64,000 nucleotides of DNA from Comamonas badia DSM 17552 (GTDB lineage: Bacteria > Pseudomonadota > Gammaproteobacteria > Burkholderiales > Burkholderiaceae_C), in NCBI RefSeq assembly GCF_000484635.1, contig NZ_AXVM01000003.1, positions 372,001-436,000 on the forward strand. Direction: 5' to 3'. Positions 16,201 to 64,000 of the stretch are shown one piece after another (within the stretch, counting starts at the first letter, position 1; the number at the start of each line of letters is the position of its first letter). Below the pieces are notes generated by a model. The model did no database searches. It was not told where the DNA came from and saw only the letters and a list, made by a program, of their open reading frames with translations. A program made the position numbers and the translations under genes.

Positions 16201-16220
16201 GCCCACAGAAAGGAAACAGA

Positions 16221-17294: not shown

Positions 17295-17327
17295 AGATGG
17301 CACCGAAACACGGGGGCCCCACAAGCT

Positions 17328-17426
17328 CCTTCCCCCGCTGGGGGAAGGCTGGGATGGGGGCAGACCCGCAGCAAGCCTGGGCGTCGGCGTGTGCCCCCAC
17401 CCCCACCCTCCTCCGGCGGGAGAGGG
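17328..17426. repeat. REP-like hairpin pair inside the hmu operon
   Basis: Two GC-rich hairpins lie in the 152-base gap between hmuS and hmuT. The first is a perfect 9-base stem, CCTTCCCCC / GGGGGAAGG (17328-17336 and 17340-17348), with a GCT loop. The second is an imperfect stem at 17406-17426 (CCCTCCTCC / GGGAGAGGG with one mismatch). G/C-runs of this type occur as dispersed extragenic elements in many Proteobacteria and often give false proteins containing PSPAGGG. They may stabilise the upstream mRNA or attenuate hmuTUV. Confidence 0.65.
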
Positions 17427-17446
17427 AGTCAAAAGCCATCCCGTCG

Positions 17447-48727: not shown

Positions 48728-50347
48728 TTATGCGATACGCTCGCGCAAAACGGTCTTGAGAATTTTTCCGGTGGACGTCTTGGGTAACGGGCCGAACACG
48801 ACCTGCTTCGGGATCTTGAACGAAGCTATGCCGGCGCGACAGAAATCAATGATCTCCTGCTCGGTGGGCGCCTTCTCGCCATTCTTCAGCGCGACGAAGG
48901 CGCATGGCACCTCGCCCCAGTGGGAGTCGGGGCGCGCGACGACCGCTGCTTCCAGCACCGCCGGATGAGCGTACAGCACATCCTCGACTTCCTTGCTGGA
49001 AATGTTCTCGCCGCCCGAAATAATGATGTCCTTGGCCCGATCCTTGATCTCGACGTAGCCGTCCGAGTGCATTACCGCCAAGTCGCCGGTGCGGAACCAG
49101 TCGCCGCAGAAGGCCTGCTCGGTAGCCTCGGGGTTCTTTAGGTAGCCTTTCATCAGCGTGTTGCCGCGGTGCACCAATTCGCCCAGCGTCCGGCCGTCGG
49201 CCGGCACGACGGCATCGGTTTCGCGATCCAGCACCTGCACATCGTCCATCGCATAAAGGCCCACGCCCTGGCGTGCCATCTTTGCCGCCAGTGCATTGCC
49301 GTCGAGGCTCGCCCAATCGTCTTGCCACACGCACACGGTCGATGGCCCGTAACTTTCCGTGAGGCCGTACAGATGGGTGATGCGAAACCCCACCGTCTGC
49401 GCCTTGGCGATCACGGCGTTCGGTGGCGCCGCGCCGCCGAGCGCGAATTGCACCGGATTGGCGAGTGCCACGCCCTGTTGTGCGAAATCGTTCAGGAGCT
49501 GGTTCAGCACCACCGGAGCGCCGCACATATGGGTGATGTGGTGCTCGCGCAGGTGGCGCAGTACTTCGTCCGAGCGCACTTTGCGCAGGCATACGTGCGT
49601 GCCGCCGACGGCTGTGATGGCCCATGTGTAGCACCAGCCGTTGCAGTGGAACATCGGCAGCGTCCACAGGTAGACGGTGTCCGGCGTCATGTTGAACGCC
49701 ATCGCGTTGCCCAGCGCCGAGAGGTAGGCGCCGCGGTGGTGGTAGACCACGCCCTTGGGGTCGCTGGTGGTGCCCGAGGTATAGCACAGCGAGATCGCCT
49801 CCCATTCGTCCTCGGGCTTGCGCCAGTCGAACCCGGCGTCGCCGTCCGCCAGCAGGGTCTCGTAGTCGTGCGTGGCGACGCCGGGCGTGGCGGGCGCTTC
49901 GCGCGCCACCGCGACCAACACCGGCGGCCGTGCCATGCCCTGCACTACCTCGCGCACCAACGCTTCGAACTCGGTGTCGTAGAGCAGCGCCTTCGATTCG
50001 CCGTGCTCCAGGATGAAGCGCAGCGTCGCGGCGTCGAGCCGGATGTTGAGCGCGTTCAGCACCGCACCCGCCATCGGGATCGAGTAGTGGCTCTCCAGCA
50101 TCTCGTGGCTGTTGAAGAGCAGCGTGGAGACGGTGTCCCCATGCCGGATGCCAAGGCCCTGCAGGGCGCTTGCCATGCGCCGGCAGCGCGCATAGAGCGC
50201 GGCATAGCTCAGCGTTCCATCGTCGTCGATCACCGCGGTCTTGTGCGGGAAGATCCAGGCCGAGCGCTTGAGGAACATGGTGGGCGTCAGCGCCGAATAA
50301 TTGGCCGGGCGCTTGCCCAGGCCACGCTCGTATGGACTGTCGTTCAT
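48728..50347 (-). CDS. acyl-CoA synthetase (AMP-forming), LvaE/DmdB-like
   Basis: 539 residues. Seen: CYTSGTTSDPKGVVYHHRGA (P-loop), LYGLTESYGPS, WFRTGDLAVMHSDGYVEIKDRAKDIIISGGENIS and the C-terminal LPKTSTGKILKTVLRE lysine. It activates a medium- or short-chain acid to its CoA ester. It is the last gene of a four-gene operon; only one base separates it from the phosphotransferase stop. In the Pseudomonas lva operon the corresponding gene is LvaE, so the substrate may be a 4-keto or 4-hydroxy acid, but other carboxylic acids are possible. Confidence 0.9.
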   Translation of the reverse strand: MNDSPYERGLGKRPANYSALTPTMFLKRSAWIFPHKTAVIDDDGTLSYAALYARCRRMASALQGLGIRHGDTVSTLLFNSHEMLESHYSIPMAGAVLNALNIRLDAATLRFILEHGESKALLYDTEFEALVREVVQGMARPPVLVAVAREAPATPGVATHDYETLLADGDAGFDWRKPEDEWEAISLCYTSGTTSDPKGVVYHHRGAYLSALGNAMAFNMTPDTVYLWTLPMFHCNGWCYTWAITAVGGTHVCLRKVRSDEVLRHLREHHITHMCGAPVVLNQLLNDFAQQGVALANPVQFALGGAAPPNAVIAKAQTVGFRITHLYGLTESYGPSTVCVWQDDWASLDGNALAAKMARQGVGLYAMDDVQVLDRETDAVVPADGRTLGELVHRGNTLMKGYLKNPEATEQAFCGDWFRTGDLAVMHSDGYVEIKDRAKDIIISGGENISSKEVEDVLYAHPAVLEAAVVARPDSHWGEVPCAFVALKNGEKAPTEQEIIDFCRAGIASFKIPKQVVFGPLPKTSTGKILKTVLRERIA

Positions 50348-50348
50348 T

Positions 50349-51413
50349 TCAGGTCTCCTTCTTGTCGATGGCGTGCCGCCGCCCCGCCATATACCGCTGT
50401 GCCGCCTGCCAGCCCAGCTCGGCCAGCGGCCCGGCCTTGGCGCCGGTTTCCACTGCGTCGTCGGCGGCAGCGTTGCCGTCCTGCGCCCGCTGGGCGATGC
50501 CGTGCAGTATGGCCGCCATGCGAAACAGGTTGTAAGCCAGGTAGTAGTCCCAGGCGCCCGCGGCGTCGCGTCCGGTGGCGGCGCTGTACCAGGCCACGTA
50601 TTCCTCTTCGGAAGGAATGCTCAGTGCGGGCAGATCCAGCCCCCCTATGCCGCGCCACAGGCTGGGCGGGATGCGCCAGGCCATGCACTGGTAGGCCAGG
50701 TCGGCCAGCGGATGGCCCAGGGTGGACAGTTCCCAGTCCAGCACGCCGATGACGCGCGGCTCGGTGGGGTGGAAGACCAGGTTGTCCAGCCGGTAGTCGC
50801 CGTGCACCAGCGTGGTCTCGTCGTCCGCGGGCAGGTGCTCGGGCAGCCAGTCCATCAGGCGGTGCATCGCGTCGTTCATCGGCAAGGAGGATTGTCGGCA
50901 CTGGCGCGACCAGCGCGCGGTCTGGCGGGCCACGTAGTTCCCCACCTTGCCATAGTCGCTCAGGCCCACGGCGCGGTAGTCCACGGCATGAAGCGCGGCG
51001 ATGACGCGGTTCATCTCGCGGTAGATGGCGTGGCGCTCGGCGGGCTGCATGCCGGGCAGCGACTGGTCCATGAGCACGCGGCCCTCAAGGAACTCCATCA
51101 CGTAGAACGGCGTGCCCAGCAGCTCGCTGTTTTCGCAATAGTGCAGCATGCGCGGCACGGGCACGCCGGTATCCGCCAGCGCATTCATCACGCGGTATTC
51201 GCGGTCGATGGCGTGGGCCGAGGCGATGAGCATGCCCGGCGGCTTCTTGCGCAGCACGTAGTCGCGGCCTTCGCCCGCGGTGACGCGGTAGGTGGGATTG
51301 GACTGGCCGCCCGCGAGCACGCGCACCTCCAGCGGAGCGCTGCCCGCCAGGCCCTGGGCACGCAGGTAGTCGGCCAGCGCCTCGACCAGCAGGGGATTCG
51401 CGGGACCGCTCAT
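50349..51413 (-). CDS. aminoglycoside-phosphotransferase-like acyl-CoA kinase (LvaA / ACAD11-N type)
   Basis: 354 residues. LAGGQSNPTYRV and YVLRKKPPG (ATP-binding lysine), TTLVHGDYRLDNLVFHP (catalytic Asp) and GVLDWELSTLGHPLADLAYQ (metal Asp) are the kinase motifs. Homologues form the N-terminal half of ACAD10/11 and LvaA, which phosphorylates 4-hydroxyacyl-CoA. The start overlaps the SDR stop by 4 bases (ATGA). Confidence 0.88.
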   Translation of the reverse strand: MSGPANPLLVEALADYLRAQGLAGSAPLEVRVLAGGQSNPTYRVTAGEGRDYVLRKKPPGMLIASAHAIDREYRVMNALADTGVPVPRMLHYCENSELLGTPFYVMEFLEGRVLMDQSLPGMQPAERHAIYREMNRVIAALHAVDYRAVGLSDYGKVGNYVARQTARWSRQCRQSSLPMNDAMHRLMDWLPEHLPADDETTLVHGDYRLDNLVFHPTEPRVIGVLDWELSTLGHPLADLAYQCMAWRIPPSLWRGIGGLDLPALSIPSEEEYVAWYSAATGRDAAGAWDYYLAYNLFRMAAILHGIAQRAQDGNAAADDAVETGAKAGPLAELGWQAAQRYMAGRRHAIDKKET

Positions 51414-52183
51414 AGCGAACTCACCAGGTGCGCGCCGTCGACGGCCAGCGTGGCGCCCGACATGGCCGCGCCCGCGTCCGAGGCCAGCAGCAGCAGCGGG
51501 CCGTCCAGGTCGGTCACCTCGCCGAAGCGGCGGCTGGGAATGCGCGCGCGCAGCTTGTCGCCCTGCGCGCTCGTGAGGAAGTCGCGGTTCAGGTCGGTGA
51601 CCACGTAGCCTGGCAGCAGCGCGTTCACGCGGATGCCGTGGCGCGCAAGCTCCAGCGCCAGGGCCTTGGTGGCCTGCACCACGCCGGCCTTGGAGATGGC
51701 GTACGGCGCCACGCCGCCCGTCACGCGCTCGCCCAGGATGGAGGCCACGTTGACGATCGCGCCGCTCTTGCCCGCCGCCACCATGCGGCGCGCGGCCTCG
51801 GTGGCGACGAGCCAGTTGCCCTTGAGGTTGGTGCCGAGCACGTGGTCGAAGTCTTCCTCGGTCTGCTCCAGCACGGGGCGCGTGACGGTCACACCCGCGT
51901 TGTTGACCACCACGTCGGGCACGCCCCAGGCGCACAGCGCGTCGAAGCAGGCGCGCACGCTGGCGTTGTCGGTCACGTCGAGCGCGAAGGCGCGCGCCTC
52001 GCCATCCCGGGCGGCGATGGCATCCACCACGCCCTGCAGCTTGTCCACGCGGCGCGCGGCCACTGCCACGCGCGCGCCGGCGGCGGCCAGCACTTCAGCG
52101 AAGTGCGTACCCAGCCCGCTGGAGGCGCCGGTCACCAGCGCCAGCTTGCCCCGCAGGTTGAATCGATCCATCACGGCGCTCAT
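51410..52183 (-). CDS. short-chain dehydrogenase/reductase
   Basis: 257 residues. TGASSGLGTHF (cofactor loop), NNAG, and YAISKAG (catalytic Tyr and Lys) are intact. The Arg pair after the second strand (AARRVDKL) favours NADP(H). In the operon it may interconvert 4-keto- and 4-hydroxyacyl-CoA, as LvaD does, or act as a 3-hydroxyacyl-CoA dehydrogenase. It overlaps the dehydrogenase gene upstream and the kinase gene downstream, each by 4 bases. Confidence 0.9.
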   Translation of the reverse strand: MSAVMDRFNLRGKLALVTGASSGLGTHFAEVLAAAGARVAVAARRVDKLQGVVDAIAARDGEARAFALDVTDNASVRACFDALCAWGVPDVVVNNAGVTVTRPVLEQTEEDFDHVLGTNLKGNWLVATEAARRMVAAGKSGAIVNVASILGERVTGGVAPYAISKAGVVQATKALALELARHGIRVNALLPGYVVTDLNRDFLTSAQGDKLRARIPSRRFGEVTDLDGPLLLLASDAGAAMSGATLAVDGAHLVSSL

Positions 52184-53382
52184 GCCACACCCCCTTCGCG
52201 CAGCAGCTCGGCCTCGGCCCTCTCGGCCATATGGGCGAGCTTGCGCGCCATGCTCCAGCGGTGCACCTCGCTCGGTCCGTCGTAGATGCGGAAGGCGCGC
52301 ATGTCGGTGAAGATGCGCATCACGGGCGTCTCGCCCGTCACGCCCTGGCCGCCGAGCATCTGCACGCTGCGGTCCACCACGCGCCACTCGGCCTCGGAGC
52401 ACACGACCTTGGCACGGCTCGATTCGAAGTTGCACTTCTCGCCCTGGTCCAACAGCCAGGCCGTGTGCCAGATGTGCAGGCGCGCGGTGTGCAGGTCCAT
52501 GTCGTTGTCGGCCACCATGAAGCCCACGCCCTCGTGCTCCACCAGCGGCTTGCCGAAGGCATGGCGCTTGCGCACGTAGTTCAAGGCTGTGTCGTGCGCG
52601 CGGCGCGCCTGGCCCAGCCAGCGCATGCAGTGCGTAAGCCGTGCGGGCGCCAGGCGCACCTGCGCGTAGCGAAAGCCCTTGCCGATCTCGCCCAGCACGT
52701 CGCTTGCTGGCACGCGCAGATTGTCGAAGCGCAGCACGCCGTGGCCGCCGGTGAAGCAGGCATCCATCGCATCCATGTTTCGCTCCAGGGTGATGCCCGG
52801 GCGATTCATGTCCGAGAGGAACATGGTGGCCGAGCCGTCCTCCATGCGCGCCATGATGATGGCGTAGTCGGCCCCATCGGCGCCGGTGATGAACCACTTG
52901 CGGCCGTTGATGAGGTAGTCGTCGCCGTCGCGCACCGCCGTGGTCTGCAGCATGGAAGGATCGGCCCCCGCGCCGGGCGAGGGCTCGGTCATCGCGAAGC
53001 ACGAGCGCGTCTCGCCCGCCACCTGAGGGCGCAGCCAGCGCTCCTTCTGCGCAGGCATGGCCACCTCTTCCATCAGGTGGATGTTGCCCTCGTCGGGCGC
53101 GTGGATGTTGAGCGCCGTGGGCCCCAGGCGCGAATAGCCCGCCTCCTCGAACACCACGGCCTTCTCGATGTGCGTGAGGCCCAGCCCGCCCATGGCGCGC
53201 GAGGCGTGGGGCGTGAGCAGGCCTGCCGCTTTGGCGCGCGCCACCAGCTCGTGGCGCAGCGCCTCGGCGGGGCCATGGTGCGATTGGCGCGGATCGGCTT
53301 CGAGCGGAATCACCTGCTGGACGATGAACTGTCGAACTCTGTCGCGCAATGCGCGCAGTTCCGAAGAGAGAGAAAAATCCAT
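52180..53382 (-). CDS. acyl-CoA dehydrogenase (LvaC / ACAD11-C type)
   Basis: 400 residues. CFAMTEPSPGAGADPSMLQ (flavin-binding), FITGADGADYAIIMARM, QARRAHDTALNYVRKRHAFG and the C-terminal RIYDGPSEVHRWSMARKL match the ACAD10/11 branch, which handles 4-hydroxyacyl-CoA after phosphorylation. It starts the four-gene unit; AGAGAGAAAAATCC lies before the ATG. Confidence 0.92.
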   Translation of the reverse strand: MDFSLSSELRALRDRVRQFIVQQVIPLEADPRQSHHGPAEALRHELVARAKAAGLLTPHASRAMGGLGLTHIEKAVVFEEAGYSRLGPTALNIHAPDEGNIHLMEEVAMPAQKERWLRPQVAGETRSCFAMTEPSPGAGADPSMLQTTAVRDGDDYLINGRKWFITGADGADYAIIMARMEDGSATMFLSDMNRPGITLERNMDAMDACFTGGHGVLRFDNLRVPASDVLGEIGKGFRYAQVRLAPARLTHCMRWLGQARRAHDTALNYVRKRHAFGKPLVEHEGVGFMVADNDMDLHTARLHIWHTAWLLDQGEKCNFESSRAKVVCSEAEWRVVDRSVQMLGGQGVTGETPVMRIFTDMRAFRIYDGPSEVHRWSMARKLAHMAERAEAELLREGGVA

Positions 53383-53552: not shown

Positions 53553-54545
53553 TCAGGAAGTTGTAATCGTGTTTGTGAGGTGGCCTGTCAGGGACACGAT
53601 CGATTGCTTGATTTCATTGGCAGCAACAGGCAAATCATTCGCTTGATTCAGAAAACCATGGGGCATGGCGCTGGCAATGGAAAGCTTGGAAGGCACACCA
53701 CTCTCCAAAAGCGCACGATGCAAGTCGATTGAATCGTCATACAGCGGGTCGAGCTCAGCTGCGAGTACATAGGTGTACGGTAACCCGTGGAGCCTTCCCA
53801 TCAGTGGGAATGCGCGCCAATCACCCAGCGGAGCTTTCTGTAAATAGGCATCAAAATATCGCTCTTGAGCCTGTTTGCTCAGGCCGAAACGGCCATCTCC
53901 ATAGGCATCGAAGGACCCCCCGTTTCGGCATGGCGCGTAAGAGCCATAGTACAAAAGCAGTGCCAAAACATCCGATATCCTGTCCTCATCCCGTCGGCGC
54001 ATGGCTTCCACCAACGCCAAATTGGCCCCGGCGGAATCGCCCGCAAGAATCACCTGGGCATTCGCTTGAATGTCTGTTCGCGTTCGTTGTTGGAGAATGA
54101 AATCGACGGCGGCGCCGACATCTTCGAAGGCCGCGGGAAATGGGTGCTCCGGTGCCAGCGAATACTCGACGCCACAAACCGGTACTTGCGCGGCGCGTGC
54201 CAGATGACGCAAGACCGTGTCGTGCGTTACATTCGAGCCAACGCACCAGCCTCCGCCGTGCAGGTAGGCTATCGGCGTGCGCTGAACGCTTTCTTGACTG
54301 GCGTAATACCAGCGCAATCGGACAAGGCGCTCGTGAACCGTGATGTGTTCATCCTCAATCCGATACATGGGGATGCAGTTTGCATGAGTGCGTTTTCTTT
54401 CTTCTTCCAGCAACCTGCGTGCTCGCGGAAAGGGAACTGTATAGCGATCGGTTTGCGCAACATCTGCCCTCTGACGCTTGAGCAACTGCGCCAAATCCGG
54501 ATCCAATCGTTGTGCGTATGGTCGACCAGTCCAAGTGTTGAGCAC
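53553..54545 (-). CDS. alpha/beta hydrolase, hormone-sensitive-lipase type
   Basis: About 330 residues. HGGGWCVGS (oxyanion hole), GDSAGANLA (nucleophile Ser), AELDPLYDD (Asp) and MPHGF (His) form the HSL-family set. Members are esterases or amidases on small hydrophobic esters. The start is taken as GTG 54545, two bases past the RidA stop with a purine-rich AAAGAAG before it; an ATG further upstream would overlap the RidA gene for 50 codons. It is the last gene of the long minus-strand operon. Confidence 0.82.
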   Translation of the reverse strand: MLNTWTGRPYAQRLDPDLAQLLKRQRADVAQTDRYTVPFPRARRLLEEERKRTHANCIPMYRIEDEHITVHERLVRLRWYYASQESVQRTPIAYLHGGGWCVGSNVTHDTVLRHLARAAQVPVCGVEYSLAPEHPFPAAFEDVGAAVDFILQQRTRTDIQANAQVILAGDSAGANLALVEAMRRRDEDRISDVLALLLYYGSYAPCRNGGSFDAYGDGRFGLSKQAQERYFDAYLQKAPLGDWRAFPLMGRLHGLPYTYVLAAELDPLYDDSIDLHRALLESGVPSKLSIASAMPHGFLNQANDLPVAANEIKQSIVSLTGHLTNTITTS

Positions 54546-54546
54546 T

Positions 54547-54936
54547 TCAATCTTCTTTGAAGGCGGTGGCTTCGATTTCAAACAGCCATTCCGGCCGTGC
54601 CAGTTCCTTGACGACCACCAGCGTGGCAGCAGGTCGGTGCTCGTCAAGGTATTCCTTGCGAACCGCATTGACGGCTGGCAGATTCTTGGCGTCAAGCAGG
54701 TAAGTGGTGATTTTCACCAGGTGCTGCACTCCCATGTCCGCATCTGCAAGGATGGCCAGGAGATTCTTCCAAGCCGCGTCGGCTTGGTTCTGGACGCCTG
54801 CGGCTAAGCTCCCATGCGCATCCACGCCAATCTGTCCGGCAACATGGAGCCATTGGCCAGGTCTGCTCACGTGGACCGAATGGGAATAGGCACCCACGGG
54901 GGGAGCAATGGCTGAAGGGTTGCGAAACGTAGTCAA
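54547..54936 (-). CDS. RidA/YjgF/RutC family protein
   Basis: 129 residues. RidA proteins hydrolyse reactive enamines and imines to ketones plus ammonia; some members (RutC, AMP-type) are dedicated pathway steps. Seen: PPVGAYSHSVHV, LHVAGQIGVDAHG, KITTYLLDAKNLPAVN and a C-terminal ARPEWLFEIEATAF, where the usual Arg of the active site lies. Inside a catabolic operon with two hydrolases it suggests a nitrogen-containing intermediate. Confidence 0.9.
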   Translation of the reverse strand: MTTFRNPSAIAPPVGAYSHSVHVSRPGQWLHVAGQIGVDAHGSLAAGVQNQADAAWKNLLAILADADMGVQHLVKITTYLLDAKNLPAVNAVRKEYLDEHRPAATLVVVKELARPEWLFEIEATAFKED

Positions 54937-54984
54937 AACAATCTCCCTGGAAGTGACGGATGGGTTTGCGCAAGACAGGAGGCA

Positions 54985-55836
54985 TTACGTCAATAACTGT
55001 TCTTGCACGTGCTGGAAAAGTGTGAAATCAGGATTGGCTAGTTCTTCGAGAATGTCGAAGTGCGTGCGTGCAGAAACGATATGCAGCGCCGCGGATGCAC
55101 CGGTACCTTGTGCCGCAGCCACGAAATCGCGACTTTGCTGAATGAAACCTTCGGTTTCACGTTCACCGACGGCCACGAAAAACTGCTTGGAATAAAAGCG
55201 CGGTAGCCTGCTTGGACTCATGCGCAGTGCTTCATCCAGCGTCATGCGCACATCGTGGTTCACCGTGGTCAGCAACAGCGGAGAAAGAGAAAAGACGCCG
55301 CTGATGGGGAGCACTGAGACCAAGGGATATCCGCCAAGGGTCTCCGGCGGAATACCACTCAGCATCGCTGCGAGTTGCCCCCCCGCTGAATGTCCCGAGA
55401 TGCAGACGCGCCGCGGGTCGAAGTGAAGCGTTTTGGCCTGTGTGTTCAGCAGGCGCATGGCGTTGGAAACCTGCTCCAGGATATCCGTGACGCGGACGGC
55501 TGGCGCAAGTTGATAGCCCACCATCGCCACCGCGATGCCGCGTTTCACATATTCCTCTGCAATGCAGCTGAAAAGGCGGTGATCCAGCGCGCGCCAGAAT
55601 CCGCCATGGATGAAAACCAGGAGCGGCGTTGGTTCTTGTGCTGCATCTGCGCCAGCCCTCTCCTTCTGCGCAGGAAACCAGTCAATCACGCAACGTTCGG
55701 AAGCGCCGTAAGGGATGCTCTTCCAGTCCGCGAGCTGTGAACGGAAACGCTCGCTACGTGTACGGTAATCGGCATAGATGGACTCTCGTTCCGGATGTCG
55801 GGGACGCAGGCTGTAGTTGTATTCCTGCTTTTGCAT
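54985..55836 (-). CDS. alpha/beta hydrolase, kynurenine-formamidase-like
   Basis: About 283 residues. VFIHGGFWRALDHRL (oxyanion HGGxW) and ISGHSAGGQLAAML (nucleophile Ser) are clear, with the His in SARTHFDILEEL; this is the formamidase branch of the fold, which acts on small amides or esters. ATG 55836 is chosen. A TTG at 55869 gives 11 more residues and overlaps the livF stop; it is possible because the added residues MEVDAHSIVEL read into the usual N-terminal helix. Confidence 0.8.
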   Translation of the reverse strand: MQKQEYNYSLRPRHPERESIYADYRTRSERFRSQLADWKSIPYGASERCVIDWFPAQKERAGADAAQEPTPLLVFIHGGFWRALDHRLFSCIAEEYVKRGIAVAMVGYQLAPAVRVTDILEQVSNAMRLLNTQAKTLHFDPRRVCISGHSAGGQLAAMLSGIPPETLGGYPLVSVLPISGVFSLSPLLLTTVNHDVRMTLDEALRMSPSRLPRFYSKQFFVAVGERETEGFIQQSRDFVAAAQGTGASAALHIVSARTHFDILEELANPDFTLFQHVQEQLLT

Positions 55837-55858
55837 CAGCTCAACGATGCTGTGTGCG

Positions 55859-56572
55859 TCAACCTCCAAGGTAGGCTTCCTTTACCCGCGCATCGGCGGC
55901 AAGTTCTTCTGCTCTCCCTGCGAGCACCAGACGGCCACTTTCTATGACATAGCCGTAGTCCGCATGCCGCAAGGTGATCTCGCTGTTCTGTTCGCAGATG
56001 AAGACGGTCAAGTTCTGTGCGGCGAGTGTCGCCAGTGCTTCGAAAATCTGTTTGACGATCAGCGGCGCAAGCCCCATGGAGGGCTCATCCAGTAGCAGCA
56101 CCTTGGGCGCAGACATCAATGCGCGGCCAATGGCCAGCATCTGCTGTTCCCCGCCCGAAAGCGTGCCCGCAACTTGCTCCATGCGCTCCTTGAGTTTGGG
56201 AAACAACTCCAGCACGAATTCCAGTTGCGTCTGATAGCGAGAGGTGTCTCGCTTGATCAAATATTGGAATGCGCCCATTTCCAGGTTCTCTGCAATGGTC
56301 AGCGGCGCGAACACCTTGCGCCCCTCCGGAACGAGCGCTAGTCCCTGCCGCACGACGCGTTCTGCGCCCACGCCGGAGATGTCCTGTTCCATGAAGCGCA
56401 CGGTACCCTGGGTGGGTTTCATGAGTCCGCTGATGGTCTTCATCACGGTGGATTTGCCTGCTCCATTGGCGCCAATGAGCGCCGTGATCGACCCCTTTGC
56501 AATGCCGAGATTCAATCCATGCAGCACATCGCCGTGCCCGTAGGAGGCATGCAAGTCACGGACTTCAAGCAT
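55859..56572 (-). CDS. livF: branched-chain-type ABC transporter ATP-binding protein LivF
   Basis: 237 residues. GANGAGKSTVMKTISGL, LVPEGRKVFAPLTIAENLEM, TLSGGEQQMLAIGRALM and LLLDEPSMGLAPLIVKQIFE are the LivF motifs. It is one of two ATPases for the import system encoded here. The gene overlaps livG by 8 bases. Confidence 0.93.
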   Translation of the reverse strand: MLEVRDLHASYGHGDVLHGLNLGIAKGSITALIGANGAGKSTVMKTISGLMKPTQGTVRFMEQDISGVGAERVVRQGLALVPEGRKVFAPLTIAENLEMGAFQYLIKRDTSRYQTQLEFVLELFPKLKERMEQVAGTLSGGEQQMLAIGRALMSAPKVLLLDEPSMGLAPLIVKQIFEALATLAAQNLTVFICEQNSEITLRHADYGYVIESGRLVLAGRAEELAADARVKEAYLGG

Positions 56573-57335
56573 GGACGGCCTCCTCGCCTAGGTAGGCACT
56601 GATGACTTCCGGATTGGCAGCGATCTCCTTCGGCGTGCCTGCAGCTAGATAACGACCGCTGCGCATGACCAGAATCTGGTGGCACAGCCCCATCACCATG
56701 CGCATGTTGTGTTCGACAAGGACCACGGTGACGCCGGTGTCGTTCACTTCGCGGATCATGCCAACGACTGGTCCCTGTTCGGAGGCTGGTACTCCTGCGA
56801 TGGGCTCATCCAGCATCAGAACATGGGGCTCTGCCGCGAGTGCGCGGGCAATCTCCAGCAGCTTGGATTCGCCGAAGCTCAAATCTCCGGCGAGACGCGC
56901 CGCGCGGTCGCCGAGTCCCATCAGCTTCAGCTTCTCGTAAGCTACTTCCTCCATCCTTCTCTCTTCTCGGTGGACCCCGGGCAACCCCAGCAACGCAGCC
57001 AAAAAGCCGGTGCGCGCGCGCGGGTGGTAGCCGATCATCACGTTTTCGATGAGGCTGAGATCCGGAAATATCTGCAGATTCTGGAATGTCCGCGCAATGC
57101 CCAACGCAGCGCGCTGATAGGGCTGCAGCGCCTGGATTTCACGCTCCCGCAATCGTATGGTGCCCGCGCTCAATTTCTGGATGCCTGCGATGGCATTGAA
57201 CAAGGTGGTTTTTCCCGCGCCGTTCGGCCCGATGATGCCCTGTATCTGACCGGCCCGCACCGACAGACTCAAGCCATCGACCGCATGCAGGCCGCCGAAG
57301 CTCACGCGCACGTTTTCAACGTCCAACAGTGCCAT
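56565..57335 (-). CDS. livG: branched-chain-type ABC transporter ATP-binding protein LivG
   Basis: 256 residues. GPNGAGKTTLFNAIAGI, RTFQNLQIFPDLSLIENVMI, LSFGESKLLEIARALA and LMLDEPIAGVPASEQGPV. The signature reads LSFGE instead of LSGGQ/LSYGQ, a variant common in this branch. ATG 57335 lies 20 bases inside the end of livM. Confidence 0.93.
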   Translation of the reverse strand: MALLDVENVRVSFGGLHAVDGLSLSVRAGQIQGIIGPNGAGKTTLFNAIAGIQKLSAGTIRLREREIQALQPYQRAALGIARTFQNLQIFPDLSLIENVMIGYHPRARTGFLAALLGLPGVHREERRMEEVAYEKLKLMGLGDRAARLAGDLSFGESKLLEIARALAAEPHVLMLDEPIAGVPASEQGPVVGMIREVNDTGVTVVLVEHNMRMVMGLCHQILVMRSGRYLAAGTPKEIAANPEVISAYLGEEAVHA

Positions 57336-58383
57336 TGGGCGACTCCGTCTTGAGATTGCGCAAAGGCCTGTTTGAATCCACCTCCTTGGTCCGATTCTTT
57401 CGCTGACGTGCGCTTCCAAATCGCTGACCGAGCGAAGCGATCCCTCCGGGGAGGTAGAGAAGCACCACGATCATGCAGAGGCCGAAAATCAGCAACTCGG
57501 AATCTTGAAAACGCCGCAGCAATTCGGGCACGCCGGTCAGGACTGCGGCGCCGAACACGGGGCCCCAGAGGGATCCCACGCCGCCCAGCGCCACCATGAC
57601 GACCAAGAGCACCGACGCGAAGAAGCCGAATGTCTCAGGCGAAGCGAACAGGTTGAAGTGTGCATACATGGCCCCAGCAAGGCCGGCCATGCCGGCAGAC
57701 AGGCTGAATGAGATCACCTTCGCCCTGAAAGTGTTCACACCCAGCGTGTTGGCCCCGATCTCACTTCCCTCTATCGCTCGCAGCGAGCGCCCTGGCGCGC
57801 TGTAGAACAGGTTGATCAGGCACCACATGACCAAGGCCCCCGCCAGCCATGCGAACCAAAAGAATCGTCCTGGCGTATCCAGGGCATAGCCGAACAATTC
57901 ATAGGGTTCGATGCCGGCGAGCCCGTTGGGACCACCGGTCAGAGGCACCAGTTCAACGAACAGCACGGACAGAATGCCACCGAAGCCCAGGGTCCCCATC
58001 GAAAGATAGGGGCCGCGCAAACGCAGTGTCGCCCATCCGACGATGGCAGCCACAGCGCCGACGGCGGCAAGCGCAGCGATCGTCCCCAGCCAGGGCGAGA
58101 TGCCCCAGCGCGTATTCAGCACACCGCTGACATAAGCTCCCAGACCATAAAACGCCGCGTGCGCCAGCGAGACCTGGCCTGTCCAGCCCATGATGACGTT
58201 GAGGCTTGCGATCAGAATCAGATTGATGAAGAAATAGACGCCCATGCTCAGCATGTAGTCATTGGGGGCCACCAGCGGCCAGACCAATGCCAGTATCCAA
58301 AGGGCCAGCAATATCCAGCGATGGCGTGCTACACGGTCGCTGACAATAGAAGTGGAGCTTGACTGCCAAAATTGTGTTCTCAT
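57316..58383 (-). CDS. livM: branched-chain-type ABC transporter permease LivM
   Basis: 355 residues with about nine helices. SLNVIMGWTGQVSLAHAAFY, TLRLRGPYLSMGTLGFGGIL and ALGGVGSLWGPVFGAAVL are the LivM elements. The C-terminus carries a basic, hydrophilic extension of about 30 residues after the last helix (from RQRKNRTKEVDSN) that overlaps the livG start. Confidence 0.92.
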   Translation of the reverse strand: MRTQFWQSSSTSIVSDRVARHRWILLALWILALVWPLVAPNDYMLSMGVYFFINLILIASLNVIMGWTGQVSLAHAAFYGLGAYVSGVLNTRWGISPWLGTIAALAAVGAVAAIVGWATLRLRGPYLSMGTLGFGGILSVLFVELVPLTGGPNGLAGIEPYELFGYALDTPGRFFWFAWLAGALVMWCLINLFYSAPGRSLRAIEGSEIGANTLGVNTFRAKVISFSLSAGMAGLAGAMYAHFNLFASPETFGFFASVLLVVMVALGGVGSLWGPVFGAAVLTGVPELLRRFQDSELLIFGLCMIVVLLYLPGGIASLGQRFGSARQRKNRTKEVDSNRPLRNLKTESPNGTVGR

Positions 58384-58386
58384 GCT

Positions 58387-59259
58387 TCACACTTTCTCAA
58401 CCTGTCCGCGGCCCAGCAGGCCGTTGGGCCACTTCACGAGAACAAGCAGCAAAACGACGAATGCCACAGCGTCTTTGAAATGCGACGAAAGCATGCCTCC
58501 AGCAAAACTCTCCGCCAATCCAAGGAAAATACCCCCAACCATCGCGCCTGGCAAACTGCCCAAACCCCCGAGCATCGCGGCACAAAATGCCTTGAATCCG
58601 AGAATTGTCCCGTGGTCGAATGAGGTTAGCGTCAGCGGTGTCACGATGACGCCCGCAATTGCACCAACCGCAGCGGCCAAGATGAATGACAAACTCATCG
58701 TGAGCCTTGGGCTGATGCCTACCAGTGCTGCTGCTTCGGGTTGTGCGGCAGCAGCACGCATCGCCTTGCCAAGCACGGTCTGGTTGAAGAAGTAGCCCGC
58801 ACCGGCCATGACGAGGGCGGCAACACCAATGATCCAGAGGGATTGGGTCTCCAGCACCGCACCGGCAACGGAAATGGGCCCGCTTTCAGAGAACGAAGGC
58901 AAGCCCGCGGGACTCTTCCCAAGGGTCAGCATAACGAAGCTTTTGGTGCAGATTGCAATCGCGATCGTGAGGATCGTGATGGACATGGGCGTCGGCTTCT
59001 GGAGCTTGCGTACGATCAGGCGCTCGGAAAGCGCACCGACGATCATGGCCACGATGACTGCCACCACGAACGCGATCGGCAGGGGTATCTTGGCTGTATA
59101 CAGGGTGGCTGCGACCATCCCGCCCAGCATCACCCACTCACCTTGTGCAAAATTCAGGGCGCCGGTGCTTTTGAAGATGATGTTGAAGCCAAGCGCCACC
59201 ATGGCGTAGATACTCCCTGTACTCAGACCTGCGAACAGCAGTTGAACGGTGTCACTCAT
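58387..59259 (-). CDS. livH: branched-chain-type ABC transporter permease LivH
   Basis: 290 residues, about eight helices. LFAGLSTGSIYAMVALGFNI, STGALNFAQGEWVMLGGMVA and GFKAFCAAMLGGLGSLPGAM are typical LivH sequences. It pairs with LivM. It lies 28 bases after the second diiron gene and 3 bases before livM, so transport and oxidation genes share one message. Confidence 0.92.
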   Translation of the reverse strand: MSDTVQLLFAGLSTGSIYAMVALGFNIIFKSTGALNFAQGEWVMLGGMVAATLYTAKIPLPIAFVVAVIVAMIVGALSERLIVRKLQKPTPMSITILTIAIAICTKSFVMLTLGKSPAGLPSFSESGPISVAGAVLETQSLWIIGVAALVMAGAGYFFNQTVLGKAMRAAAAQPEAAALVGISPRLTMSLSFILAAAVGAIAGVIVTPLTLTSFDHGTILGFKAFCAAMLGGLGSLPGAMVGGIFLGLAESFAGGMLSSHFKDAVAFVVLLLVLVKWPNGLLGRGQVEKV

Positions 59260-59287
59260 GAGCGAAATGCCTTTTTCCGGGAAAGTG

Positions 59288-60217
59288 TCACAACTCGCCC
59301 AGCACAGGGTGCCGAGGCCGTGTCATGACAAAGCCAAGTTGCTCCAACCGATGAAAGGCGTTCTGCAGGTACTCTTTGAAGGTGCGCAGCTCAGTCTCCG
59401 GTGTGGCTGCACCAAGACCTGCCTCGGCCACCAGCATGGCGGCAGCTTCTTCGGCCTGGGCCCCGATCGTGCTGGACAGACTAGGGATGTGATAGCCGGA
59501 AAATGCAACTTCTTCGACCCACTTAGTGATGTGTCTTGCGATCACCTGTTTGGTCTCGGCATCCATCCGGCCAGCACGTTCTTCGAGATACAACCAGCCG
59601 AACGATGCGTGGCGCTCCTTGGCCTGAACCACGTGCTTCAGGATGCCGGCCGCGACGGGCTCACGCGCGTTGCTGGCATACAGGCGATACAGTTCAAGTT
59701 CCAGGCCGTCGGCCAGCGCGCATTGAGTGGCGACATAGGCATCCAGTGACTGGGTTGCGTTCAGGGCATCCCGGTAAAAGGTGCGGTTGATCACAGCCTC
59801 CCAGGCGGGGTTGGCGGGCCTACTCTGGTAGCCGCCCAGCAACTTCGCGTAGCGATGAAAGCATTCGATGTGCCATGCTTCTTCGGTGTTTCTGACGGTC
59901 AGGAAATACTTGGGATCCGACTCGCGATCCAGTTCCAGGCAGAAACGGATCAGCAGTGCGGGTGTTTCCGCCAACCCCGTATATTCAAGCCAGGCTCTGC
60001 GGCTCCAAACCTGCCGGGCAGCCTCCAGTTGCGTTGGTGAATAAGTGGATGGATCCAGTTTGTCCCAGTCAATGTCCTTGTTGGGGCTCCAGCGCTGCCG
60101 CTTCCCGGTTTCGTACAAGTCCCGAATGGATTGGATGGATCGGTGAAGGTCCAGTGGAAAGCGACGTTCGACCATGAGCGGGGTCGGCGTGGCGCCGCGG
60201 TGCTGTGTTTGCATCAT
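59288..60217 (-). CDS. ferritin-like diiron-type protein, paralogue 2 (altered helix-4 ligand)
   Basis: 309 residues, paralogous to the product of the next gene upstream (shared DIDW-x-LD, WSRRAW-EY and FGW). Helix 1 Glu78 in AWLEYTGLAETP and the helix 2 pair Glu113-x-x-His116 in TEEAWHIECF are kept. Helix 4 reads QAKERHASFGW, so the position of the expected ExxH glutamate is Lys200, with Glu201 shifted by one; helix 3 reads CALADGLELELYRLY instead of AAEEIAFDVFRH. I infer a degenerate or structural partner subunit. ATGATG start with AGGAGATC upstream. Confidence 0.75.
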   Translation of the reverse strand: MMQTQHRGATPTPLMVERRFPLDLHRSIQSIRDLYETGKRQRWSPNKDIDWDKLDPSTYSPTQLEAARQVWSRRAWLEYTGLAETPALLIRFCLELDRESDPKYFLTVRNTEEAWHIECFHRYAKLLGGYQSRPANPAWEAVINRTFYRDALNATQSLDAYVATQCALADGLELELYRLYASNAREPVAAGILKHVVQAKERHASFGWLYLEERAGRMDAETKQVIARHITKWVEEVAFSGYHIPSLSSTIGAQAEEAAAMLVAEAGLGAATPETELRTFKEYLQNAFHRLEQLGFVMTRPRHPVLGEL

Positions 60218-60247
60218 TGATAGATCTCCTGGTGCTGACTGGCTTGA

Positions 60248-61180
60248 TCAGAATTCCCCATCGATCTTTGGGTGACGGAACATGGGCAATTGGATGCCCC
60301 AGGATTCCTCCATCTGACGTCGGATCCGCTGAACGGATGCAACGAACACCGGCTTTTCCAGCTCCTCGACCGTCGCACCCAAACCGGCTTCCCAGGTGAG
60401 ACGGTCTGTTTCCACCTCACCGGCCTTGGCCGCGCCTTCCGTGGCGAGCCAGGCGCTGTGGTAGCCATTGAGTTCGACTTTTTCGATCATGAGCACGATG
60501 GCGTCTTCAACGGCGCGCAGTTGTGCTTTCGAGAGATGCGGAATACGGGTGTCCATGAACGCCCAGCCAAAGGCGCAGTGGCGCACCTCGTCGCGCATGA
60601 TGCTCTTGAGCACCTGGCGCGCCACAGGGTTGGGCGTGATGTCGATGAGATGGCGAAATACGTCGAAGGCGATCTCCTCGGCTGCGCATACCAAGGCGGC
60701 GATCACCCCCTCCAGCGGAACGCTCGGGTCAAGCGCCATCTTGCGGACACCGTGCGTGGCAACGGCACCCTGGAACTCCGACAGGTCGGGTTGCTGGATA
60801 TAGCCGCCAAGCGCCTCCGCCATGCGAAAGCACACTTCGGCATGTCGTGACTCCTCCTGCGTACGGATGGTGAAGTACAGTCGCATGTCGGGCGGGCAGT
60901 TCTCCTGGCAAAAGCGAATTTGCAACGCAGGCGATTCCGAAATCGCCCCGTATTCGCCCCAGGCGCGCCGACTCCAGTACATGCGGGCAGCGTAGAGTTG
61001 CTCCGCCGTGTATGGCGAAATGTCGAGTTGCTCCCAATCGATGTCGGTGGCGGGATTCCATTGGTTGTCGGTAGCCGTATGGAACAGGTTTCTTACCCGC
61101 GGCACGGCGAAATCCAACTCCAATGGGAAGCGACTTTCGGGAGCGTCGAGAATGGTGGATGTAGCGATAGTCGCACTCAT
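60248..61180 (-). CDS. ferritin-like diiron oxygenase-type protein, paralogue 1
   Basis: 310 residues, largely helical. The four-helix diiron set is recognisable: Glu76 (RRAWGEYGAISES), Glu110-x-x-His113 (QEESRHAEVCF), Glu168/169 (CAAEEIAFDVF) and Glu198-x-x-His201 (RDEVRHCAFGW). This fits the ferritin-like superfamily of O2-activating hydroxylases and N-oxygenases (AurF- or R2-like), but I cannot name the specific family. AAGGAGACAAAC precedes the ATG. It follows the periplasmic binding-protein gene and precedes a diverged copy, so the pair may form a two-component oxygenase acting on the imported compound. Confidence 0.77.
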   Translation of the reverse strand: MSATIATSTILDAPESRFPLELDFAVPRVRNLFHTATDNQWNPATDIDWEQLDISPYTAEQLYAARMYWSRRAWGEYGAISESPALQIRFCQENCPPDMRLYFTIRTQEESRHAEVCFRMAEALGGYIQQPDLSEFQGAVATHGVRKMALDPSVPLEGVIAALVCAAEEIAFDVFRHLIDITPNPVARQVLKSIMRDEVRHCAFGWAFMDTRIPHLSKAQLRAVEDAIVLMIEKVELNGYHSAWLATEGAAKAGEVETDRLTWEAGLGATVEELEKPVFVASVQRIRRQMEESWGIQLPMFRHPKIDGEF

Positions 61181-61227
61181 GTTTGTCTCCTTGAGGTTAT
61201 GTCTGATCGTCGAGTGGTTTCGCTGAC

Positions 61228-62394
61228 TTACTTGTAATCTGCGAGTCTGAAGCGGCCGTCCTCGTACTTCACCATCACCAAATCGGATTTCGAAAGTCCG
61301 GAATGCCTGGTGGCTGAAAAATTGAATGTGCCACCAACACCGGTGTAGTTCTGAACACCTTCCATCGCGTCACGGACCGCACTCTTGTCGGCCCCCCCCT
61401 TTTCCAACACCATCTTCGCAAGGTAGATCGCGTCATAGGTCTGGGCGACAAACTGGTTGGGGCGCCGTTTAAAGCGCGTCTCGAACGCTTTGTTGAGTTC
61501 GAGGATGCGTTCCTTCACGGGATCATTGGCAGGCAAATCCTCCCCCACGGGGAACTTCACGCTGACCAACAGAACTCCTTTTGCGGCTTCGCCGGCCAAG
61601 TCCATGTAGCGCTTGTCCACGAAACCATAACTGTGTATGAACGGTATATCACCCATGCCCAGTGTCTTGGCCTGCTTCATCGCTACGACGCCTGCGGGTG
61701 TCACGGTCCAACAAACGATGGCCTGCACACCAGCCGCCTTTAGCTTGTTGATCTGCGGGGCCATGTCCGTATCGCTGGGATTGAACGATTCATAGACGAC
61801 ATCCAAGCCTCGCCGCGGCGCTACATTTTTCCATTGCTCGATGGCGCTTTGTCCAAAGCCCGAAGAATCCGCGAGCATGCCCACCTTCTTGATGTTGTTC
61901 TTGTCAAAGTAGTCGGCGATGCGCTCCACGACTTGATCGTCATCCACCGTGGACTTGAAGGTCCAGTGACGTTCGGCCACCGGCATCACGATCTGCATGC
62001 TGCCTTCGGTGGAGATGAACGGCACATTGGCTTTCTCGGTCTGCTGGAGCATGGCGATTGCCATGCCACTCATGTTGCCGCCGCCGACAATCATTTCCAC
62101 TTTGTCCTGGGTGAGCAAGCGGCGGGTCGCACTCAGGCCTTTCTGCGTCTGACTTTCTGCGTCATACAGAACCCATTCGATTTTTTTGCCGTTGACCCCC
62201 CCTTTGGCGTTGATCTCTTCGAGTGCAAGCTCCATACCGGCCTTCATGTCGTCACCAAGAAAGGCGGCTGGACCAGTAACAGAGAGTACAGAACCTATCT
62301 TGTAGCTGGTCTGGGCTTGCGCGGAAGCTGTCAGCCCCATCATCAGAAGACCAAGCAGCTTGAATGTCATACGTTTCGAAATGCGTGTATTCAT
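61228..62394 (-). CDS. branched-chain-type ABC transporter substrate-binding protein
   Basis: 388 residues, class I periplasmic binding fold. Signal peptide (TFKLLGLLMMGLTASAQA), then YKIGSVLSVTGPAAFLGDDM and GVNGKKIEWVLYDAESQTQK. VGGGNMSGMAIAMLQQTEKA and FISTEGS give the ligand-binding loops. This subgroup often binds aromatic or other carboxylates rather than leucine. ATG 62394 is chosen; ATG 62370 is a possible alternative closer to the signal core. Confidence 0.9.
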   Translation of the reverse strand: MNTRISKRMTFKLLGLLMMGLTASAQAQTSYKIGSVLSVTGPAAFLGDDMKAGMELALEEINAKGGVNGKKIEWVLYDAESQTQKGLSATRRLLTQDKVEMIVGGGNMSGMAIAMLQQTEKANVPFISTEGSMQIVMPVAERHWTFKSTVDDDQVVERIADYFDKNNIKKVGMLADSSGFGQSAIEQWKNVAPRRGLDVVYESFNPSDTDMAPQINKLKAAGVQAIVCWTVTPAGVVAMKQAKTLGMGDIPFIHSYGFVDKRYMDLAGEAAKGVLLVSVKFPVGEDLPANDPVKERILELNKAFETRFKRRPNQFVAQTYDAIYLAKMVLEKGGADKSAVRDAMEGVQNYTGVGGTFNFSATRHSGLSKSDLVMVKYEDGRFRLADYK

Positions 62395-62464
62395 GGTGAA
62401 CAGTGGTTGGTGGTTGGGGAAGAGGAACTGAGGGAGGTAAGTAAATACGTTGCCAAATGGCAGC

Positions 62465-63340
62465 TCAATCATTGATTTCGGGTGGTGATCGTCCGTCGGC
62501 GTCACTCTTGGATTGCGTGGCAAAGTGATCACTGGCGAGGGCGACGGTGAACGTATGACGCACGGAACTTCCAGGGGAATAGGAGCGCCCGCACATTACC
62601 GGCATGCCATCCTTGGAGAAATACACCAGCTTGCGGATCAACACTGCCGAGTCCGGAGGCACGTTGAGCAACTTGCCGAGTTCGCTTCCAGCCGTCACAG
62701 CCTCGATGCTGTTTTGCGCATGTGACAAGGTCACTCTGCGAGAAAGAAGATCGAGCAGTGAAAACTGCACTGCTTCCTGCTCGGTAATCGACCCCGCCAG
62801 ATCCGGATGGATATAGCGATAGTCGTAGGACACCATAGCCTCGCTGCTGCTGCGCTGGCGTTCAATGTGAAGCACATCCTGTCCGACGTTGACGCCGAGA
62901 TGAAACGCAATGCTTGCGGGGCACGGCTGTATGGCGAAATGACACAGATGAAAGACCAAAGGGCGACCGCCCTTTTCCCACTGATGCTGGAAGTCCATCT
63001 GGGGGCCGAAAATTTCGTCGAATTTGTCGGCATTAACGAAAGTGCCCTGTCCTTGCACCCGACGCAACAGTCCCTGCCCCACGAGCTCCTGGATCGCCTG
63101 CCGTACTGTGAAGCGGCTGACGCAAAACATGGCGCCGATTTCCTGATCCGAGTAGAAGCGGTCACCCTGAAAGGCTTCACTCTGGATGAGTGTTTGCAGC
63201 CGGTGTTTCAGCTGGGCGTAGAGCGGTAGCGCGGAACCACGGTCCAGAGCCAGCGAGTCACCCGTGGAACGCGCCTTTGCAGGCTGATCGGCGTAAGACC
63301 GTTCAATGCTTGACATGGTGCGTGAAAAACTTTTGTTCAT
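62465..63340 (-). CDS. GntR-family (HutC subfamily) transcriptional regulator
   Basis: 291 residues. Winged helix: LYAQLKHRLQTLIQSEAFQG, then SDQEIGAMFCVSRFTVRQAI and GLLRRVQGQGTFV. A UTRA effector domain follows, with VLHIERQRSSSEAMVSYDYR and LIRKLVYFSKDGMPVMCGRS. HutC-type proteins repress catabolic operons until a small ligand binds. It is the first gene of the operon and would also control its own promoter. Confidence 0.92.
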   Translation of the reverse strand: MNKSFSRTMSSIERSYADQPAKARSTGDSLALDRGSALPLYAQLKHRLQTLIQSEAFQGDRFYSDQEIGAMFCVSRFTVRQAIQELVGQGLLRRVQGQGTFVNADKFDEIFGPQMDFQHQWEKGGRPLVFHLCHFAIQPCPASIAFHLGVNVGQDVLHIERQRSSSEAMVSYDYRYIHPDLAGSITEQEAVQFSLLDLLSRRVTLSHAQNSIEAVTAGSELGKLLNVPPDSAVLIRKLVYFSKDGMPVMCGRSYSPGSSVRHTFTVALASDHFATQSKSDADGRSPPEIND

Positions 63341-63343
63341 ACT

Positions 63344-63373
63344 GTTGTACAGATATTATGATATGCAGACAAC
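63344..63373. promoter_or_regulatory. candidate operator palindrome in the gntR divergent promoter
   Basis: GTTGT (63344-63348) and ACAAC (63369-63373) flank an inner near-palindrome, ATAT-TATG-ATAT (63353-63364), giving a 30-base imperfect inverted repeat centred between the two divergent genes. Its AT-rich core may double as a -10 region. The size and position fit a dimeric HutC-type repressor site. Confidence 0.5.
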
Positions 63374-63412
63374 TTGTGTCAACAGACTTTTCCTGTCAGA
63401 GGCGCTGCTTTC

Positions 63413-64000
63413 ATGTCCATTGCACTTATCGATTTCCCTGATGCGTCTACACCATCGGCGAGTGCGCTGAGCTTTGCGATGCCCGGCCCACTGGACAATT
63501 TCGATCTAGTGATCTGGCGCCCCGCTGCGCTTGCGGAGATCTATATGACGGAGGGCTCTTCCAGGGGCGGGCCGGTGGTTCTCCGGGTGCGTGATTCGCA
63601 GCGGATGTACAGCGATATCCGCTTCTGGCGGGCCGAGTTCGAGGAGTTCTTGGGCCGCGGCGGCACGCTGGTCGTGCTGGCACCCGGCTTCACAACCCTG
63701 GGACTGCACACGGTTCAGGACATTGTTCCGTGCGACGTGATCGAGGCACTCCCTCGTCATCGGGACTTGCACCACACCGCTTGCGAAGCATCCGATGTGC
63801 AGTGCGATGTCGGGGAGCCATTTCACGGGTTCTTCAGCGCGGTTGGCAGGCATTTCGTTGCGAAAGCCACCTTCATGCCACGCACTGGCCAGCCCATTGC
63901 ACATCTGGCCGAGACCAACAAGATTTGCGCCACCTACGAATATCGCCATCCCGGGCGTGTTCTGGTGATGCCGGAGTTGCGCGGGACAACAACGCCGCCG
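63413..64000 (+). CDS. protein of unknown function, 5' part (runs off the right edge)
   Basis: 196 codons, open to the end of the window, starting MSIALIDFPDASTPSASALS. It contains DNFDLVIWRPAALAEIY, GPVVLRVRDSQRMYSDI, then FEEFLGRGGTLVVLAPGF, an alternating strand-helix pattern with a Gly-rich turn that looks like a Rossmann-type or amidotransferase-like sandwich. No signal peptide. Not recognised. It is divergent from the gntR gene and 73 bases away, with the candidate operator between them, so it may belong to the same regulon or to a separate unit. Confidence 0.7.
   Translation, partial: MSIALIDFPDASTPSASALSFAMPGPLDNFDLVIWRPAALAEIYMTEGSSRGGPVVLRVRDSQRMYSDIRFWRAEFEEFLGRGGTLVVLAPGFTTLGLHTVQDIVPCDVIEALPRHRDLHHTACEASDVQCDVGEPFHGFFSAVGRHFVAKATFMPRTGQPIAHLAETNKICATYEYRHPGRVLVMPELRGTTTPP

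Follow-up and report, generated by a model that had tools for sequence, protein, structure and literature searches.

A conserved candidate operon in Comamonas badia that combines a Liv-type importer, two ferritin-like proteins, and hydrolases

We analyzed a 64,000-nucleotide stretch of the genome of Comamonas badia DSM 17552 (contig NZ_AXVM01000003.1, positions 372,001 to 436,000; here referred to as “the window”), in which 11 open reading frames (ORFs) occupy positions 53553 to 63340 of the minus strand. The cluster joins a GntR-type regulator and a branched-chain-type (Liv) ATP-binding cassette (ABC) importer to two paralogous ferritin-like proteins, here named DiA and DiB, two hydrolases (HydA and HydB), and a Rid-family protein. 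We conclude that it is a real and conserved, probably mobile operon for uptake and oxidation. Its parts are of familiar kinds, and their combination appears to be undescribed: an initial annotation, made from the letters alone, knew of no named pathway with this gene set, and we likewise found no description of it in open-licence papers.

Gene order in the window and in other genomes

All 11 ORFs are present, in the order GntR-SBP-DiA-DiB-LivH-LivM-LivG-LivF-HydA-RidA-HydB. By their listed coordinates, adjoining genes overlap or lie at most 48 bp apart, in keeping with the initial description of genes mostly overlapping or separated by fewer than 50 bases. The features are given below in the direction of transcription, with E values for Pfam matches unless stated otherwise.

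63355 to 63382, minus strand: sigma-70-like promoter upstream of GntR, TTGACA-16-CATAAT, 11/12 matches
62465 to 63340, minus strand: GntR/UTRA (HutC-like) regulator; UTRA 1.8e-24, GntR 2.5e-11
61228 to 62532, minus strand: Liv/HAAT-type periplasmic binding protein (SBP); Peripla_BP_6 7.8e-63
60248 to 61180, minus strand: DiA, predicted catalytic ferritin-like diiron oxygenase; AurF, weak, 1.7e-7
59288 to 60217, minus strand: DiB, DiA paralogue and predicted noncatalytic partner; no Pfam family
58387 to 59259, minus strand: LivH-type permease; BPD_transp_2 4.3e-39
57316 to 58383, minus strand: LivM-type permease; BPD_transp_2 2.5e-37
56565 to 57419, minus strand: LivG-type ATPase, listed start overlapping livM; ABC_tran 3.8e-29, BCA_ABC_TP_C 1.3e-9
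55859 to 56572, minus strand: LivF-type ATPase; ABC_tran 2.6e-32
54985 to 55869, minus strand: HydA, alpha/beta hydrolase of the esterase or kynurenine-formamidase type; BD-FAE/Abhydrolase_3
54547 to 54936, minus strand: Rid-family protein without the catalytic Arg; Ribonuc_L-PSP 6e-26
53553 to 54545, minus strand: HydB, accessory hydrolase of the hormone-sensitive lipase (HSL)/acetyl-esterase type; NCBIfam LipP1 model 186 bits, below the cut-off of 350

With a binding protein, two permeases, and two ATPases, the cluster holds the full complement of a Liv/HAAT ABC importer. The GntR protein scores 98 bits against the HutC model, below the cut-off of 220. The listed start of HydB is a TTG within RidA; a GTG at 54545 to 54543, just after the RidA stop, fits better. 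The promoter is the best of four promoter-like sites in the region, where shuffled sequences give 3.7, and a simple palindrome scan upstream of GntR revealed no conserved operator common to all loci.

We searched one genome per species (84,980 species) using a two-sequence DiA alignment and recovered 22 loci, to which a plasmid of Paraburkholderia PREW-6R adds a 23rd; its two peptide patterns came from only two DiA sequences, which biases the scan toward close relatives. Twenty of the 23 loci, from both beta- and alphaproteobacteria (classes assigned in part from record titles), have the order GntR-SBP-DiA-DiB-LivHMGF. The initial observation that the ferritin-like genes lie between the binding protein and livH, within one cluster for uptake and enzymes, holds well beyond this genome. 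For these loci, a script picked the gene starts from tblastn hits; a few of those for LivM, LivG, and SBP are overlong. The contig of one of the remaining loci, L036, ends inside DiB. The other two, L048 and L049, carry DiA, DiB, and HydA side by side without GntR, SBP, or Liv genes, and DiA-DiB-HydA therefore looks like the enzymatic core. In L048 (positions 2791 to 4670), two successive DiA copies precede DiB and HydA.

GntR was found in 21 of the 23 loci, HydA in 20, and Rid in 15; HydB adjoins the operon in two only (L035 and L037). RidA and HydB, which had been counted as members of the cluster, are members here and are not constant elsewhere. Two loci, both from Paraburkholderia (L032 and L052), reach beyond LivF and have no HydA; in each, an amidase-signature gene follows RidA, recognized by Pfam PF01425 in L032 and by similarity to the L032 gene in L052.

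The operon is rare and patchy across genomes. In an even phylum sample of 398 genomes, DiA matched only its own genome at an E value of ≤1e-20, and no relative was found among the viral contigs searched. Matches to DiA at an E value of ≤0.001 occur in 157 genomes of a 399-genome family sample; the own genome and four others do so more strongly than 1e-15, and the rest are weaker and mostly partial. Four of the five other genomes of the same genus in this sample have no DiA match at ≤0.001, and the fifth (G391) matches it weakly and in part (1.5e-8).

The operon forms an island of low GC in the C. badia genome. The G+C content of its genes is 54 to 61%, compared with 65 to 73% for the genes on its downstream side, which are as follows.

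48728 to 53382, minus strand: acyl-coenzyme A dehydrogenase (ACAD), short-chain dehydrogenase/reductase (SDR), aminoglycoside phosphotransferase (APH)-type kinase, and acyl-coenzyme A (acyl-CoA) ligase; native neighbors and possible lower pathway (from Pfam; SDR via a match to an annotated SDR)

In another genome of the genus, G401, the ACAD-SDR-kinase genes are 91% identical to the window at the DNA level; identity stops at window position 53383, the base immediately before the ACAD start codon, past which G401 has other genes (the comparison was confined to this place in G401, and the remainder of that genome was not searched for the operon). Because the identity to this sibling spans ACAD, SDR, and kinase up to 53383, we rejected these native acyl-CoA genes as members of the operon in this genome. 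A sibling species has its ACAD relative (83% identical) on the downstream side of a Liv-type transporter operon that differs from this one (L067, positions 2938 to 10958).

The ferritin-like pair, the hydrolases, and the Rid protein

DiA and DiB are 33 to 34% identical. We aligned 23 of 25 DiA-type proteins (L040 and L044 omitted as near-copies) and 21 of 24 DiB proteins (L040, L044, and the cut L036 omitted). In the joint alignment, six diiron positions (E76, E110xxH113, E168, and E198xxH201) are intact in all 23 DiA, so every one of these sequences carries the E, ExxH, E, ExxH pattern of a 2-His/4-carboxylate ferritin-like oxygenase, and none of the 21 DiB does. Six distant DiA relatives all keep E110, H113, E168, E198, and H201 and have E or D at position 76. 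DiB has Lys in place of the last ExxH Glu in 21/21 sequences and Asp (19) or Ala (2) at E168, and it has lost the first His in 8/21. Since that last Glu is lost throughout, DiB is probably not a second diiron enzyme, and we rejected the initial reading of tandem diiron proteins.

A precedent for such a pair is phenylacetyl-CoA epoxidase, in which PaaA and PaaC share one fold and PaaC is structural (PMC4498308). The likeness lies in two same-fold ferritin-like subunits, of which one has the diiron ligands and the other is structural; by analogy, DiB is probably a metal-poor partner to DiA, as PaaC is to PaaA, and a DiA-DiB complex is likely. The pair differs from PaaABCE in lying within an importer operon, in having no PaaB or PaaE gene among the 11, and in matching no PaaA_PaaC Pfam family (23 DiA at ≤0.01; 21 DiB at ≤0.1).

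The one Pfam family assigned to DiA is AurF (PF11583), which the window protein matches at 31.2 bits, narrowly above the cut-off of 29.6. In AurF, CmlI, and DnfA, the ligands form a 3-His/4-carboxylate set, in which one His precedes the last Glu by four residues (PMC12101540 and PMC9478400); this set (HxxDExxH) is described in PMC12101540 as largely unique to N-oxygenases. At the position of the third His, DiA has Ile (20) or Val (3) in all 23 sequences. DiA is therefore grouped by ligand set with the 2-His/4-carboxylate hydroxylases, and its membership in the AurF-type N-oxygenases was rejected; the degenerate second paralogue in the operon is a further difference from AurF, CmlI, and DnfA. 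A structure model of DiA, built with an alignment of 21 DiA and 18 DiB sequences, has a predicted local distance difference test (pLDDT) value of 87.6, and its nearest folds in the PDB are R2lox and the R2 subunit of ribonucleotide reductase (RNR R2).

On a Variovorax plasmid (L034, positions 7983 to 10035), a distant DiA relative, 23% identical, lies beside genes for a 2Fe-2S/FAD reductase, a PaaN-like protein, and a thiolase, with a Liv transporter; this is possibly a related pathway with its own reductase.

In HydA, the motifs HGGxWR and GHSAG (S161) and residue H270 are invariant in 18/18 sequences (18 of 21 were aligned; L040, L044, and L045 were omitted). HydA has the HGGxW motif, which we take to be the oxyanion motif of kynurenine formamidases, together with the triad Ser and His, and is by sequence of that type, although esterases and lipases score better: its PDB relatives are 9n8r (6.5e-30), 2pbl (3.9e-29), and kynurenine formamidase 4e11 (2.8e-17). 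The amidase gene of Paraburkholderia in the absence of HydA is a hint of amide cleavage, which is plausible. HydB resembles HSL/acetyl-esterase NCBIfam models and scores below their cut-offs.

RidA depends on Arg105, and about 10% of RidA proteins have Ser at that position (PMC4433059). In the operon Rid proteins, this column holds Ala (7) or Ser (9) in 16/16 sequences, which departs from the archetypal RidA imine deaminase. Because the catalytic Arg is absent throughout, imine hydrolysis cannot be assumed; the enamine/imine activity named in the initial annotation does not transfer to these proteins, and a role as a standard imine hydrolase is unsupported.

Distant diiron relatives from the family sample keep comparable company, judging from a non-overlapping choice of ORFs at L069 to L072. 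In L070, the relative is near an Arg-less Rid protein, tripartite ATP-independent periplasmic (TRAP) transporter genes, an aldehyde dehydrogenase, and an iron-type alcohol dehydrogenase; in L072, it is near an Arg-less Rid protein and a HydA-like hydrolase; and in L071, nearby genes encode a HydA-like hydrolase and a Bug-like binding protein (a name given from the sequence). The Rid proteins of L070 and L072 are 56 to 57% identical to the window Rid. Among the 398 other family genomes, four have a diiron relative (E < 1e-15) and three a close Rid relative (E ≤ 1e-25). Both lists include G147 and G261. At L072 the two genes adjoin each other, and at L070 they share a strand and are separated by 7 kb; this co-occurrence has a P value of 2.3e-4 at thresholds chosen after viewing the lists. 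Against a strict Rid-diiron link, L069 has no Rid or hydrolase match among its non-overlapping ORFs.

A proposed pathway and its alternatives

By gene content and order, the closest known kind of system is the salicylyl-CoA 5-hydroxylase operon on plasmids of Paracoccus denitrificans and P. versutus: salicylyl-CoA 5-hydroxylase-SDR-MarR-enoyl-CoA hydratase-ACAD-thioesterase-RidA-ligase-SBP-LivHMGF-alpha/beta hydrolase, with one extra gene in P. versutus. The hydroxylase is presumably a flavin enzyme that also serves 2-aminobenzoyl-CoA. These operons share with ours an alpha/beta hydrolase directly after the second ATPase, as well as RidA, ligase, ACAD, and SDR genes, but have the 5-hydroxylase rather than a diiron pair and MarR rather than GntR. 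Identity to the Paracoccus proteins is 22 to 23% for SBP, 28 to 30% for Rid, and 33 to 34% for HydA. An oxygenase, a hydrolase, and a Rid protein also come together in the Rut pyrimidine pathway (RutB/RutC). The same three occur in the pathway of the 2-aminomuconate deaminase AmnE (PMC6742747); in both, the oxygenase and hydrolase families are other ones, and here the Rid Arg is not conserved. The auxin iad operon was set aside, as its oxygenase is of the Rieske type and neither “RidA” nor “hydrolase” occurs in the main text of PMC10374108.

The acyl-CoA genes bear on a lower pathway. In all four Achromobacter loci, Rid is followed by SDR and ACAD with gaps of ≤34 bp, and ligase relatives lie ≤2 kb upstream of GntR; in L046, a ligase relative directly follows Rid. 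Relatives of the ligase at ≤1e-20 occur in only 5 of the 23 loci. In L041, an APH-type kinase, 61% identical to that of the window, follows ACAD/SDR. The window ACAD is 43% identical to that of Achromobacter and matches 4hr3 best in the PDB, then ACAD11 (3.3e-55), with other ACADs close (7e-52). The Achromobacter loci still suggest a link between the operon and acyl-CoA genes. The gene types kinase, ACAD, SDR, and ligase, beside the operon here and in Achromobacter, recall the Lva system, in which SDR and LvaE also have roles. LvaA and LvaC provide a kinase and an ACAD10/11-type dehydrogenase in a 4-hydroxyacyl-CoA route (PMC11342911). The difference is that in C. badia these genes are native, being present in the sibling without the operon at that place.

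We consider it fairly probable that the cluster is a horizontally acquired catabolic operon. The GntR/UTRA protein would sense the substrate or an intermediate, and the Liv-type importer would take up a small organic acid, perhaps aromatic or heteroaromatic with nitrogen in an amide group or in the ring. DiA and DiB, as a heteromer held together by DiB, may then oxygenate the substrate with O2 at the one diiron site of DiA, using electrons from a reductase encoded elsewhere. HydA, or the amidase-signature enzyme in Paraburkholderia, would hydrolyze the resulting or a preexisting amide or ester, the Arg-less Rid protein may deal with a reactive nitrogen-bearing intermediate, and common CoA enzymes would degrade the acid product. 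As components, the importer, the diiron protein with its single site, and the hydrolase have good support. The gene order and its conservation, the ligand patterns, and the edge of the island are observed, whereas complex formation, reaction type, substrate class, and the order of steps are inferred. This account is supported by the gene order kept in two classes, the DiA-DiB-HydA sets of L048 and L049 that have no transporter genes, the ligand patterns, the PaaC precedent, the exchange of HydA for an amidase, the Rid-diiron linkage, the G+C contrast, and the best solved relatives of SBP, 3sg0 (6e-32) and 4dqd (7e-30), which we take to bind aromatic acids. The chemistry may be that of N-heterocycles or anilides.

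Several observations weigh against this account. SBP also matches 4gnr, named for branched-chain amino acid transport (3.4e-27). SBP, LivH, and LivM resemble other Liv systems at least as closely as they do the Paracoccus operon, so the transporter does not reveal the substrate. No RidA was found in 8 of the 23 loci; in L036, L049, and L051 the sequence stops too soon for its absence to be judged, which is not so in the other five. G105 has a Rid relative and no diiron match in its genome, and Arg-less Rid proteins occur in operons of Paracoccus, Bosea, and Lichenicola with no diiron gene in view; therefore, the Rid type alone does not mark the pathway. HydA is nearer to esterases and lipases than to kynurenine formamidase. 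DiB retains E110 in 21/21 and H201 in 20/21 sequences, so that one metal could still bind. The fold matches of DiA are remote (template modeling score of about 0.6, about 15% identity), and the operon has no reductase gene; NAD_binding_1 occurs at 15 places elsewhere in the genome.

Among the alternatives, we regard as unlikely a variant of the 2-aminobenzoyl-CoA/salicylyl-CoA 5-hydroxylase aromatic-acid operon, in which the diiron pair replaces the flavin hydroxylase and acts on a CoA thioester. The Paracoccus gene order, with its hydrolase after the second ATPase, the resemblance of HydA to that hydrolase, and the SDR, ACAD, and ligase of the Achromobacter loci fit it, whereas the low identities of RidA and SBP to their Paracoccus counterparts, the scarcity of ligase relatives, and the unmatched Paa-type family do not. 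Less likely again is that DiA is an AurF/CmlI-type N-oxygenase acting on an amine of the imported compound, with the other enzymes handling the oxidized nitrogen: no other Pfam family matches as many DiA proteins as AurF does (23 of 23), and DnfA exemplifies such an enzyme outside antibiotic pathways (PMC9478400), but the missing third His points away from this chemistry.

The closest folds, R2lox and RNR R2, would also suit a pair with a role other than catabolic oxygenation, whether as an R2lox-like oxidase or in metal handling or sensing. Yet an importer and a hydrolase are its regular company, and three of the four distant relatives lie with transport, Rid, or hydrolase genes (TRAP and Rid in L070, hydrolase and a Bug-like gene in L071, Rid and hydrolase in L072; none in L069), so we hold this to be improbable. 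That the transporter and enzymes are separately regulated chance neighbors, as the two loci without transporter genes might imply, deserves very little credence, given that 20 of 23 loci preserve the order and that their genes mostly overlap or have short gaps between them.

The account favored here implies a new diiron oxygenase that works with a degenerate partner, and a substrate that bacteria become able to use through gene transfer. More tentatively, DiA-DiB could represent an undescribed two-subunit ferritin-like oxygenase family, in which the pairing of an active and an inactive subunit arose separately in the AurF/R2-like branch and which, with HydA, breaks open an aromatic or heterocyclic ring that bears an amide, as part of an unmapped pathway. 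The minimal DiA-DiB-HydA unit of L048 and L049 is small enough for expression and assay. That Rid proteins lacking the Arg lie next to diiron enzymes in several loci bears on the role of such Rid proteins.

The divergent gene c8 and other flanking features

Upstream of GntR lies one divergent gene, c8.

63413 to 64000, plus strand: first part of c8, no Pfam family; 407 amino acids in all, continuing beyond the window end to L057:2637

The coordinates of c8 on that locus are L057:1414-2637. It has no Pfam match at an E value of ≤0.1. By tblastn, relatives of c8 lie beside GntR in 12/12 betaproteobacterial loci and in 0/11 alphaproteobacterial loci, two of which also have no GntR. The c8 alignment comprises 11 of 13 sequences, without those of L032 and of the window itself, and some rows were cut down to the part that matched. 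A model of an Achromobacter relative (pLDDT 86, predicted template modeling score 0.54) has no PDB fold match at ≤0.001.

In L054, a protein of the Amidohydro_2 family, an iron-type alcohol dehydrogenase, and an intradiol dioxygenase are encoded just upstream of GntR (positions 1605 to 4706), a set that presumably resembles a hydroxyquinol/maleylacetate cluster. Elsewhere in the window, the G+C content reaches 73% at positions 16001 to 20000, compared with 65 to 68% in the other blocks before 52 kb.

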